In this document: positions 38,170 through 41,708 of the stretch, piece after piece | Layout of the letters: the number at the start of each line of letters is the position of its first letter | How positions within the stretch are numbered: position 1 is the stretch's first letter | Assembly (NCBI GenBank): GCA_030153605.1 | Contig: JASKLO010000003.1 | Span: forward strand, 1 to 64,000 | Source of the DNA: Thermosipho sp. (in: thermotogales) | GTDB lineage: Bacteria; Thermotogota; Thermotogae; Thermotogales; Fervidobacteriaceae | Direction of reading: 5' to 3' | Length of the DNA stretch: 64,000 bases | Made by a program: the position numbers and the translations under genes | Notes under the pieces: generated by a model | The model's database searches: none | What the model saw: only the letters and a program-made list of their open reading frames with translations | What the model was told of the DNA's origin: nothing

Positions 38170-39144
38170 ATGAAGATAGGGATTCTTGGAGCAGGAAGTT
38201 GGGGAATTTCTTTTGGTAATTTGTTGATTGATAATTCTCATGAAGTATTGATTTGGGGAAGGCGTAAGGAATATGTTGAAGAAGTTAATAAAACTAAACA
38301 AACACCTTATTTAGAAAATGTTGAAGTAAAATCTAAATTAACAAATGATTTAAAAGAAATTCTAGATTTTTCTGAAATTTTAGTTATTGCAATTCCAGTC
38401 CAATTTATTAGAAATGTTTTGAAAGAAATTGCAAAATATGATTATAGATTTTCATTAATTTTAAATTTATCAAAGGGTATCGAAATAGAAAGCTTAAAAA
38501 GAGTATCTGAAATCGTAAGAGAATATTTTAATATACCTTATGCAGTTTTATCTGGACCGTCTCACGCTGAAGAAGTTGCAAAAAAGATTCCTACAGCTGT
38601 AACAGTTGCAGGTAGTAATTATAATTTATTGCAGAAGATATTAAGCAATGATTATTTTAGAGTATATTCTTCTAAAGATATTGTTGGAGTAGAAATTGCT
38701 GGAGCATTAAAAAATGTAATGGCAATAGCTGCGGGTATCTTGGATGGACTCGGAGGATGGGATAATTCTAAGGCTGCTTTAATGACAAGATCTCTATTTG
38801 AAATGATGAAATTCGGAAAAATGTTAGGTGCAAAAGAAGAAACTTTTTTTGGTTTGGCGGGTGTCGGTGATTTAATTGTAACTTGTAGTAGTAAATATAG
38901 CAGAAATAGAAAATTAGGTGAGCTAATTGGCAAAGGAATGTCTTTAAAAGAAGTTTTAAGAACAACAAATATGGTGGCTGAGGGTATGTATACTGTTCAG
39001 GCAGTTGTTAATTTTTCGCGTACAAGAAACATTGATATGCCGATTTCTAAAGAAGTTTATGATATTTTATTTAATGGAAAAGATCCAAAAACTTCAATGA
39101 TTGAATTAATGAGAAGGCCATTGAAAAGTGAGTGGTATGTATGA
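38170..39144 (+). CDS. gpsA: Glycerol-3-phosphate dehydrogenase [NAD(P)+]
   Basis: The 324-residue enzyme makes sn-glycerol-3-phosphate for lipids. Signatures are I-G-I-L-G-A-G-S-W-G-I-S-F-G (dinucleotide loop), L-S-G-P-S-H-A-E-E-V and G-L-A-G-V-G-D-L-I-V-T-C. ATG follows GGAGGTG by 9 bases. It overlaps the antiporter gene mnhE by 4 bases (ATGA). Confidence 0.97.
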   Translation: MKIGILGAGSWGISFGNLLIDNSHEVLIWGRRKEYVEEVNKTKQTPYLENVEVKSKLTNDLKEILDFSEILVIAIPVQFIRNVLKEIAKYDYRFSLILNLSKGIEIESLKRVSEIVREYFNIPYAVLSGPSHAEEVAKKIPTAVTVAGSNYNLLQKILSNDYFRVYSSKDIVGVEIAGALKNVMAIAAGILDGLGGWDNSKAALMTRSLFEMMKFGKMLGAKEETFFGLAGVGDLIVTCSSKYSRNRKLGELIGKGMSLKEVLRTTNMVAEGMYTVQAVVNFSRTRNIDMPISKEVYDILFNGKDPKTSMIELMRRPLKSEWYV

Positions 39145-39485
39145 TTTATATAAGTACTAATTTTTTGTTAGGTCTTTTGTTTTTATTAGCATTTTTTGGA
39201 GTGGAGAAATTTTGGTATAGTTTTTTTATTTCTTTACTTATTAGTATATTTATTTCTTTAAATAAATATAATTTTTTGCAATTAGTTTTGGATGTTTTAA
39301 TACTAATTCCAAGAGTCGTTTATGAAGCTATACTACTGGTTTTTTTCAAGAAAGAAGCAATTGAAGTTTTAGAATATAAAGATAATTTTGAAATGTTGAG
39401 AAAAATAATAAAAATTACTTTAACCCCTAAAACTATTGTTTTTGATCATGATGAAAAAAATATCTATATACATAAAATAGAATGA
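39141..39485 (+). CDS. mnhE: Mrp/Mnh antiporter subunit E-like protein
   Basis: The 114-residue membrane protein has two or three hydrophobic segments, then L-D-V-L-I-L-I-P-R-V-V-Y-E-A-I and a short cytosolic tail with I-T-L-T-P-K-T-I-V. This pattern matches MnhE (PF01899 type). In Mrp complexes subunit E helps assemble a Na+/H+ antiporter. Start ATG 39141 overlaps the gpsA stop. It is followed by F- and G-like genes, each overlapping or touching. Confidence 0.85.
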   Translation: MIYISTNFLLGLLFLLAFFGVEKFWYSFFISLLISIFISLNKYNFLQLVLDVLILIPRVVYEAILLVFFKKEAIEVLEYKDNFEMLRKIIKITLTPKTIVFDHDEKNIYIHKIE

Positions 39486-39493
39486 GGGATAAT

Positions 39494-39742
39494 ATGTTAA
39501 TTGGAGCTATTGGAATCACTTTTTCAATTTTAATTTCTATAATATTTGTTGTAAAAAGCAAAAATATTTATGAAAGATTAATACCATTGTTGTCTATTTC
39601 AACAAAGATGTCTTTGTTGTTAATGGTTTTATCATATATTTATAATTTGCAATTTATATTTGAAGTAGGAATATTTTATTTATTGTTATCAATAGGTGGT
39701 TCGTTTATTATTGCTTCATTTATTTCAAGGAGTGATTTTTAA
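39494..39742 (+). CDS. mnhF: Mrp/Mnh antiporter subunit F-like protein
   Basis: The 82-residue protein has three hydrophobic helices and a short polar link (K-S-K-N-I-Y-E-R-L), the size and pattern of MnhF. I chose ATG 39494 because GAGGGAT lies just upstream; ATG 39482, overlapping the mnhE stop, is possible. The last base of its stop is the first of mnhG. Confidence 0.78.
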   Translation: MLIGAIGITFSILISIIFVVKSKNIYERLIPLLSISTKMSLLLMVLSYIYNLQFIFEVGIFYLLLSIGGSFIIASFISRSDF

Positions 39743-40023
39743 TGTCAATTATACAAATATCCTTAATTTATTTTGGAGTAACTTTGATGATTTTAAATAA
39801 CGTATTTGCTTTAAAATCAAAAAATCTTTTGAAAAAAATTCATTTTATTAGTGCAGGTGATACTGCAGGAGGAATATTAATTTTAATATCCTTAATGTTT
39901 TCGAAATTATATTTTTCCAAATCATTGATTGCGCTTTTAATTTTACTAATTGGTTCTCCATCAGTAACATATTTTATTGCTTATGCAATTACAAAGAGAG
40001 GGAAAAAGATTGGTAATAGTTAG
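39742..40023 (+). CDS. mnhG: Mrp/Mnh antiporter subunit G-like protein
   Basis: The 93-residue protein has three predicted helices with I-H-F-I-S-A-G-D-T-A-G-G and G-S-P-S-V-T-Y-F-I-A-Y-A, the conserved MnhG pattern (PF03334 type). It overlaps the next gene by 14 bases. Confidence 0.85.
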   Translation: MSIIQISLIYFGVTLMILNNVFALKSKNLLKKIHFISAGDTAGGILILISLMFSKLYFSKSLIALLILLIGSPSVTYFIAYAITKRGKKIGNS

Positions 40024-40672
40024 ATATATTTTATTACTTTTAACTATTTTATTATCTGGATTTGCAATATTTTCTAAAAAAGCTTTTAATGCATTTGTTT
40101 ATAGGACAATACTAAGTATTTTAGTTGTTGGATTGTATATCACCTATTTTGCTCCAGACGTTGCTCTTGCCGAAGCAATGTTAGGTGCTCTTTTAACAAC
40201 TTTTATCTACTTGTTAGCATTTAAAATTCATTCAGAAATAAAAATAGGTATATTAATTTTACCTGTTTTGTGTGAAAAGTATCAGGAATATTATAAAGGA
40301 ATAATTCCTGAAATATTAGAAGAATTTTCAAAAAAGTATAATTATAAAATTAAATTTATTGAATTAAAAGACTTTGATGAAATAATGAATTATTTAAGTG
40401 ATGTTAAAATTGATATTGGTATTTGCTATAATGGAGATTTTAAAATTTTAGAGGTACCTGTATATCAATATAAAGGTGAAGAAAAAAATTTTTTTGAAAT
40501 ACAAGAAATTTTAAAAAACGAGAGCAATTTGAATTCATTAAAAAAATCTAAAAACTATACTCTTTCTTTTTGTTTTTCAGACAAAAATTCTATATTATAT
40601 GAAGAGTTCAAAGATTTTTATACACAATTCGATTTGGAAAAAGTTTTAATAAAACATTTAAGGAGGTATTGA
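40010..40672 (+). CDS. DUF4040/MbhD-like membrane protein fused to a binding-protein-like domain
   Basis: The N-terminal 80 residues hold three hydrophobic helices with T-Y-F-A-P-D-V-A-L-A-E-A-M-L-G-A, the DUF4040 signature of MbhD and of part of MnhB/MrpA in Mrp and Mbh complexes. About 135 residues follow, beginning G-I-L-I-L-P-V-L-C-E-K-Y, with P-E-I-L-E-E-F-S-K-K-Y-N-Y-K-I-K-F and V-K-I-D-I-G-I-C-Y-N-G-D-F. That pattern recalls a family 3 solute-binding lobe. I know of no such tail on this subunit. TTG 40010 has GAGAGGG 7 bases upstream. M42 peptidase follows after one base. Confidence 0.72.
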   Translation: MVIVRYILLLLTILLSGFAIFSKKAFNAFVYRTILSILVVGLYITYFAPDVALAEAMLGALLTTFIYLLAFKIHSEIKIGILILPVLCEKYQEYYKGIIPEILEEFSKKYNYKIKFIELKDFDEIMNYLSDVKIDIGICYNGDFKILEVPVYQYKGEEKNFFEIQEILKNESNLNSLKKSKNYTLSFCFSDKNSILYEEFKDFYTQFDLEKVLIKHLRRY

Positions 40673-40673
40673 T

Positions 40674-41708
40674 ATGTCATATGTTCAATTTAGCATTCAA
40701 AAAATACTTGATTTATGTTCAATTCCTAGTCCTACTGGTTTTACTCATAGGGCCATAAAATATTTAGTAGAAGAATTTAAAAAATTGGGATTTAGCTACA
40801 CTTTGACCAAAAAAAATAATTTATTAGTTGATTTAGGACATGGTGAAAGTGATGCTATAATGTTTGTTGCCCATGTTGATACATTAGGTGCTATGGTAAA
40901 ACACATAAAAAACAATGGTAGATTAAGCATCAGTAAAATAGGTTCGTTCCCATTTAATCATGTTGAAAATGAAAATTGCATTATTCACACAAGAGATGGT
41001 AAAGAATATACTGGAACTATATATTTAACAAAACCATCTGTACATGTTTATAAAGAAGTAGGAACTTTAGAAAGAAATGATGAAAATATAGAAGTGGTTT
41101 TAGATCAAAAAGTTTCAAACGAACAAGATGTAAAAGATCTAGGTATTATGCCAGGAGATTATATATCTTTTGAACCAAGAACAATTTTAACTAAAACAGG
41201 TTTTATTAAAAGTAGACATTTGGATGATAAAGCCGGAGTTGGTATTTTATTAGGTCTTGCAAAATCTATAAGAGATTATGCTGTTCAACCAAAAAGAAAA
41301 GTATATATGATGTTTACAAGCTATGAGGAAGTAGGTCATGGAGCAGCTAGTTCGATTCCTGAAGATGTTTCTGAAGTTATTTCTGTAGATATGGGAGCTG
41401 TAGGTGAGGGCCTCAATTCAAATGTTTATTCTGTATCAATATGCGCAAAAGATTCAGGCGGACCATATGATTATGAAACGGTTTCAAAACTTATTAAAGC
41501 AGCTAATATTGCTGAAGTTAATTATACCGTTGATATTTATCCGTATTATGGTTCTGATGTTGAAAGTAGTTTAAGAGCTGGCTATGATATAAGACACGGT
41601 CTAATAGGTCCAGGAGTATATGCTTCACATGGATATGAGAGAACACACATCGATGCAATTGAAGCAACTTTGAAGTTGTTGCAAGTATATGTAGAAATAG
41701 ATGAATAA
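40674..41708 (+). CDS. M42 family metalloaminopeptidase
   Basis: The 344-residue dinuclear metal peptidase (FrvX/glutamyl aminopeptidase/TET type) has metal ligands in V-A-H-V-D-T-L-G, R-H-L-D-D-K-A-G-V-G, S-Y-E-E-V-G-H-G and D-M-G-A-V-G, and the last His in E-R-T-H-I-D-A. Members form large tetrahedral complexes that trim peptides in the cytosol. ATG follows AGGAGGTATTGAT. Co-transcription with the antiporter piece looks incidental. Confidence 0.93.
   Translation: MSYVQFSIQKILDLCSIPSPTGFTHRAIKYLVEEFKKLGFSYTLTKKNNLLVDLGHGESDAIMFVAHVDTLGAMVKHIKNNGRLSISKIGSFPFNHVENENCIIHTRDGKEYTGTIYLTKPSVHVYKEVGTLERNDENIEVVLDQKVSNEQDVKDLGIMPGDYISFEPRTILTKTGFIKSRHLDDKAGVGILLGLAKSIRDYAVQPKRKVYMMFTSYEEVGHGAASSIPEDVSEVISVDMGAVGEGLNSNVYSVSICAKDSGGPYDYETVSKLIKAANIAEVNYTVDIYPYYGSDVESSLRAGYDIRHGLIGPGVYASHGYERTHIDAIEATLKLLQVYVEIDE

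Follow-up and report, generated by a model that had tools for sequence, protein, structure and literature searches.

A predicted Group 3-type Mrp antiporter of Thermotogota with one family 3 binding-protein lobe on its MbhD subunit, a putative cytoplasmic cap

Introduction

An open reading frame in the genome of Thermosipho sp. (GCA_030153605.1) raises the question of what a soluble domain resembling a solute-binding protein (SBP) might do on a membrane subunit of an ion-transport complex. The frame lies in the window analyzed here, a stretch of 64,000 nucleotides at the start of contig JASKLO010000003.1. In the initial annotation, made from the letters alone, the product was read as an MbhD/DUF4040 subunit with a tail recalling one lobe of a family 3 binding protein, and a ligand-sensing or gating role was proposed for the tail.

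Results

The gene is located on the forward strand at positions 40010–40672. It starts with a TTG codon at 40010, ends with the stop codon at 40670–40672 and encodes a protein of 220 amino acids; its 5′ end overlaps mrpG by 14 bases. The protein is an MbhD/DUF4040 subunit, as had been annotated: residues 11–72 match the Pfam MbhD model with an E-value of 5e-12 and 46.2 bits against a cut-off of 27.2, and three membrane helices followed by an alpha/beta domain are seen in the full-length AlphaFold model (pLDDT 81). The helices cover residues 2–21, 25–47 and 51–73, and the membrane domain which they form is encoded at 40010–40228 (forward strand). Its PDB matches, 6u8y_D and 6cfw_D, are weak. 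The closest named relative of the protein, with 72% identity, comes from a Thermosipho MAG. Glu55 in the third helix is conserved in at least 90% of the 24 aligned family members. Helices 17–21 of MrpA share the Nqo10/NuoJ/ND6 fold, and a glutamate located in this region (E706 of MrpA, E69 of MbhD) coordinates the cation (PMC7419157). We infer from its position, rather than from structure superposition, that Glu55 is the counterpart of this cation-site glutamate.

The soluble tail comprises about 145 residues (76–220), slightly more than the roughly 135 first estimated. The match of the window tail to the Pfam model SBP_bac_3 is weak (0.0012–0.0026) and lies below the Pfam cut-off. The same model is matched by 19 of the 24 aligned homologs, the best at 2.5e-8, and its cut-off is passed by three orthologs, from genomes G058 (64.6 bits), G101 (33.3 bits) and G090 (30.3 bits). 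The likeness of the tail to SBPs is therefore not due to chance. The tail alone, modeled with AlphaFold from 20 sequences, gave a pLDDT of 94 and a pTM of 0.86. When this model was compared with the PDB using Foldseek, the best 50 matches listed were nearly throughout family 3 SBPs or their relatives, with a best E-value of 3.5e-6 and TM-scores of up to 0.71, which supports an SBP fold. The tail profile also matches SBPs by sequence, 6h30 at 1.8e-10. Its alignment to AncQR covers residues 29–78 and continues at residues 193–233, skipping the middle.

The alignment of the tails with true SBPs of Thermotogota explains this gap. The first part of the tail (residues 76–140; 40235–40429, forward strand) corresponds, in the alignment and in the strands and helices of the model, to the N-terminal half of SBP lobe 1, and the Thermotogota tails retain the region of the motifs that read PFEF, GFDxDLAKEIA, FDGLIPSLL and KIDV in SBPs. 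The last part (residues 177–220; 40538–40669, forward strand) corresponds in both to the C-terminal strand and two helices of lobe 1, which are likewise retained in the Thermotogota tails. Between them, a connector of residues 141–176 (40430–40537, forward strand) stands in place of the TxTxxR carboxylate loop and lobe 2. Lobe 2 is absent from all 21 Thermotogota tails aligned with true SBPs. The carboxylate loop, MTITEERKK..FSDPY in SBPs, is intact in none of the 21 and is either absent or degenerate; the tail from G058 (L101) keeps a trace of it, GLIILDEKKYKYLFSKSY, with Lys replacing Arg. In GlnBP-type proteins, the Thr and Arg of this loop hold the carboxylate of the ligand. In other families the conserved Asp is followed by a CGG segment, which Thermosipho has lost as well. 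The "one lobe" of the initial annotation is thus to be taken literally: the tail is a single SBP lobe 1, in which the N-terminal part is joined to the C-terminal part and lobe 2 is deleted. Since lobe 2 is missing and no carboxylate loop is intact, the classic SBP ligand site is, as judged from the aligned sequences, gone. The lobe-1 fold and sequence motifs are what the tail has in common with family 3 SBPs such as GlnBP, ArgBP and the GluR0 core. It differs from them in lacking lobe 2 and the TxTxxR loop, and in being joined to a pump subunit and probably cytoplasmic instead of exported.

The side of the membrane on which the tail lies was predicted from the distribution of charges. In the 24 family members, Lys and Arg residues together average 2.7 in the loop linking the first two helices, 0.04 in the next loop and 2.8 past the third helix. 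In the MBS complex of P. furiosus, the peripheral arm of the partner complex is where the C-terminal extension of MbsD docks (PMC7684303). By the positive-inside rule, and from the position established for the homologous MbsD C-terminus, the tail is predicted to be cytoplasmic; it follows immediately on the helix with the putative cation-site glutamate.

The same fusion was found throughout the phylum. A profile of the full-length protein matches 90 of 103 Thermotogota genomes, many of these matches being tail-less MbhD proteins. The tailed form was counted by hand, taking uninterrupted frames of 180 amino acids or more whose match begins in the membrane part and extends at least to around residue 118; it is present in at least 68 of the 103 genomes and in all 11 families. 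A recent fusion peculiar to this genome is thereby excluded, and so is an assembly artefact, because the same continuous reading frame recurs in many genomes. The tail is not universal, since Acetoanaerobium has a short DUF4040 protein without it; the canonical Mrp cluster of the window genome (contig C13) also encodes a separate, tail-less MbhD of 79 residues. In five pairs, the dN/dS of the tail is 0.09–0.34, which corresponds to purifying selection, and in each of them divergence is faster in the tail than in the membrane part. As selection keeps it, the tail is unlikely to be junk.

Several further candidates were inspected. The long DUF4040 proteins of haloarchaea were rejected as examples of the same fusion; their extension resembles, by eye, the membrane sequence of MbhE. 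No relatives were found on viral contigs, and the search of plasmids yielded one, of cyanobacterial origin. A region in another genome (G012:C23:79579-79953, L033) matches the tailed protein weakly, with 32% identity over residues 6–130, and contains three stop codons. It may be a copy that has decayed, or the match may be fortuitous.

The genes upstream of the tailed gene encode further Mrp subunits on the same strand. An MrpE-like subunit of 117 amino acids (39132–39485) is strongly diverged, and its assignment draws on operon position and a phmmer match in relatives, the Pfam MNHE match of 0.019 being below the cut-off. The diverged MrpF-like subunit of 86 amino acids (39482–39742) was likewise assigned with the help of operon position, the matches to Pfam MrpF_PhaF (0.0044) and to the NCBIfam subunit F model (1.2e-5) both being below their cut-offs. 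The MrpG-like subunit of 93 amino acids (39742–40023) matches Pfam PhaG_MnhG_YufB above the cut-off (2.7e-9). Downstream, an M42-family peptidase gene (40674–41708, forward strand; Pfam Peptidase_M42, 3.6e-74) starts one base past the tailed gene. Its product is nearest to the M42 peptidase of the NCBIfam "osmoprotectant NAGGN system", scoring 312 bits against a cut-off of 398. This gene adjoins the tailed gene in a single family (f1), to which the window genome belongs, and is not part of the operon in the others. Its role as a functional partner is unsupported given this restricted linkage, and the peptidase is probably outside the complex.

Most families have a compact operon with the order C-antiporter-E-F-G-D(tail)-B or E-F-G-D(tail)-B-C-antiporter, D(tail) being the tailed gene. 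Family f1 has E-F-G-D(tail) beside the M42 gene, and the second Mrp set of the window genome is split over three loci, namely the window and contigs C29 and C52. The mrpB gene is on C29 (G000:C29:19192-19518, L043), and the antiporter and mrpC genes are on C52 (G000:C52, L035, 2521-4811) with a comB-like gene between them. In the antiporter tree, the C52 gene is nested among those of the tailed operons, the sets that contain it having values of 96/95 and 97/96; the MrpB tree agrees with this placement but is weak. One antiporter gene lies outside the canonical cluster of the window genome, and no mrpA was found for the tailed set in this genome (56 contigs, 98% complete). With a single antiporter subunit, no MrpA, and the subunits C, E, F, G and B, the tailed set fits a second, stand-alone Mrp of Group 3 type as defined in PMC8415708, and is predicted from its genes to be a Na+/H+ antiporter.

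Comparison with known systems

The stand-alone Group 3 Mrp of P. furiosus, mrpEFGBB′CD, likewise has one antiporter-like subunit, no MrpA and no redox module (PMC8415708). The published description has its MbhD joined to MbhE and mentions no binding-protein lobe (PMC8415708), whereas the MbhD of the tailed set bears the SBP lobe; the B subunit of this set seems, by eye, to begin with an MbhE-like part. The membrane arms of MBH and MBS also have a three-helix MbhD, with C, B and the antiporter subunit as its neighbors; in contrast to those complexes, the tailed Mrp set has no redox arm. MbsD carries a short docking C-terminal extension (PMC7684303), while that of the tailed protein is an entire folded SBP lobe.

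The initial annotation knew of no description of the fusion. No published description of the binding-protein origin of the tail was found in the open-access literature. The databases, on the other hand, contain the arrangement. All 24 family members are matched by the NCBIfam PRK07377 "hypothetical protein" models, which we take to be cyanobacterial, and in several of them the match reaches over the tail; the tail alone does not match these models. The scores, 26–39 bits for the window protein and up to 99 bits for four relatives, stay under the cut-offs of 149–397, so that these proteins are related to PRK07377 but do not belong to the same equivalog. On an Acaryochloris plasmid, a relative annotated as "DUF4040 domain-containing" is found in the order antiporter, C, D, E, F, G, DUF4040, B, where G is an unannotated reading frame; the order C-D-E-F-G-DUF4040-B is that of the Thermotogota tailed operons. 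Compared with the profile of the Thermotogota tails, the tail of this protein of 183 residues obtains 8.8 bits, a value reached by none of 3000 shuffled sequences. Unlike the Thermotogota tail, this one cyanobacterial sequence is shorter and has no C-terminal lobe-1 part, and its reading as an SBP lobe is weakly supported. The Acaryochloris MrpD (L088) groups with that of Thermotogota family f11 (L079; 100/98), which suggests either a transfer of the operon between the phyla or a shared old lineage. The Mrp of Aphanothece, with its odd gene order, has been reported to be functional as a Na+/H+ antiporter, and the cyanobacterial Group 3 Mrp (mrpCD1D2EFGAB) has an extra antiporter gene compared with the Thermotogota set (PMC5703873). 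Thus, from the PRK07377 models, the Acaryochloris operon and the Aphanothece Mrp, the combination of DUF4040 and a tail is already in the databases, close to a studied system.

Discussion

What was computed here is the fold of the tail, its reduction to a single lobe, the loss of the site, the conservation and the operon context. We propose that the tailed protein is the MbhD subunit, the counterpart of the C-terminal region of MrpA, in a Group 3-type Mrp that has no MrpA. Its tail, an SBP lobe 1 from which lobe 2 and the carboxylate loop are missing, would sit on the cytoplasmic face and serve as a docking or stabilizing cap within or between Mrp complexes rather than as an amino-acid sensor; it may affect gating indirectly. 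We favor the cap because the binding site is lost and the docking extension of MbsD provides a precedent, and give this reading as a whole, the possible regulatory effect included, a probability of about one half. The faster divergence of the tail relative to the membrane part in the five pairs speaks against it, as do the window protein's SBP match below the Pfam cut-off and the capacity that a lone lobe could still have for a ligand other than an amino acid.

The ligand-sensing role of the initial annotation finds no support in tails of which all 21 have lost lobe 2 and an intact TxTxxR loop. A cytoplasmic sensor could still be imagined if a small molecule or ion were held in the single lobe, or between the two lobes of a dimeric complex, and gated the antiporter. 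The descent of the tail from amino-acid-binding proteins and the purifying selection acting on it agree with such a sensor, and SBP-like domains do act as sensors in BvgS, EvgS and GluR0, all of which are among the matches of the tail. The same loss in every aligned tail, together with the missing CGG segment in Thermosipho, makes us consider it unlikely. With the other half and the amino-acid-holding residues lost, a docking or regulatory cap is more likely than a nutrient sensor. The tail might instead be an adapter that brings a soluble cytoplasmic enzyme or regulator to the antiporter. A folded domain of predicted cytoplasmic location, in which neither a catalytic nor a binding site is evident, would suit this role, and the MbsD extension does touch the peripheral arm (PMC7684303). 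We regard the adapter as rather improbable, as no extra gene is constant in the operons across the families, the M42 neighbor being confined to f1. The lost ligand site, the greater variability of the tail and the shorter form of the sole cyanobacterial tail examined, which has no C-terminal part, would also be expected of an evolutionary remnant with little function. The complete and confidently modeled lobe kept in all 11 Thermotogota families, and its low dN/dS, leave this explanation little credit.

A bolder and quite speculative extension of the cap proposal is that the lobe is a regulatory or energy-coupling module of the MrpA-less Mrp. It would pair with a ligand, a second lobe or a partner in the cytoplasm and control Na+/H+ exchange through the adjoining helix of the putative cation-site glutamate. 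To our knowledge, no such control is known in any relative of complex I. For the stand-alone Group 3 Mrp of P. furiosus, the driving force is described as unknown (PMC8415708). A soluble domain that recurs across the phylum on the subunit beside the predicted cation site offers a handle on this question, and the tail can be removed without touching the membrane part. The Thermotogota tails would also represent a binding-protein lobe that was reused after the loss of its binding site, probably on the opposite side of the membrane from its ancestors.
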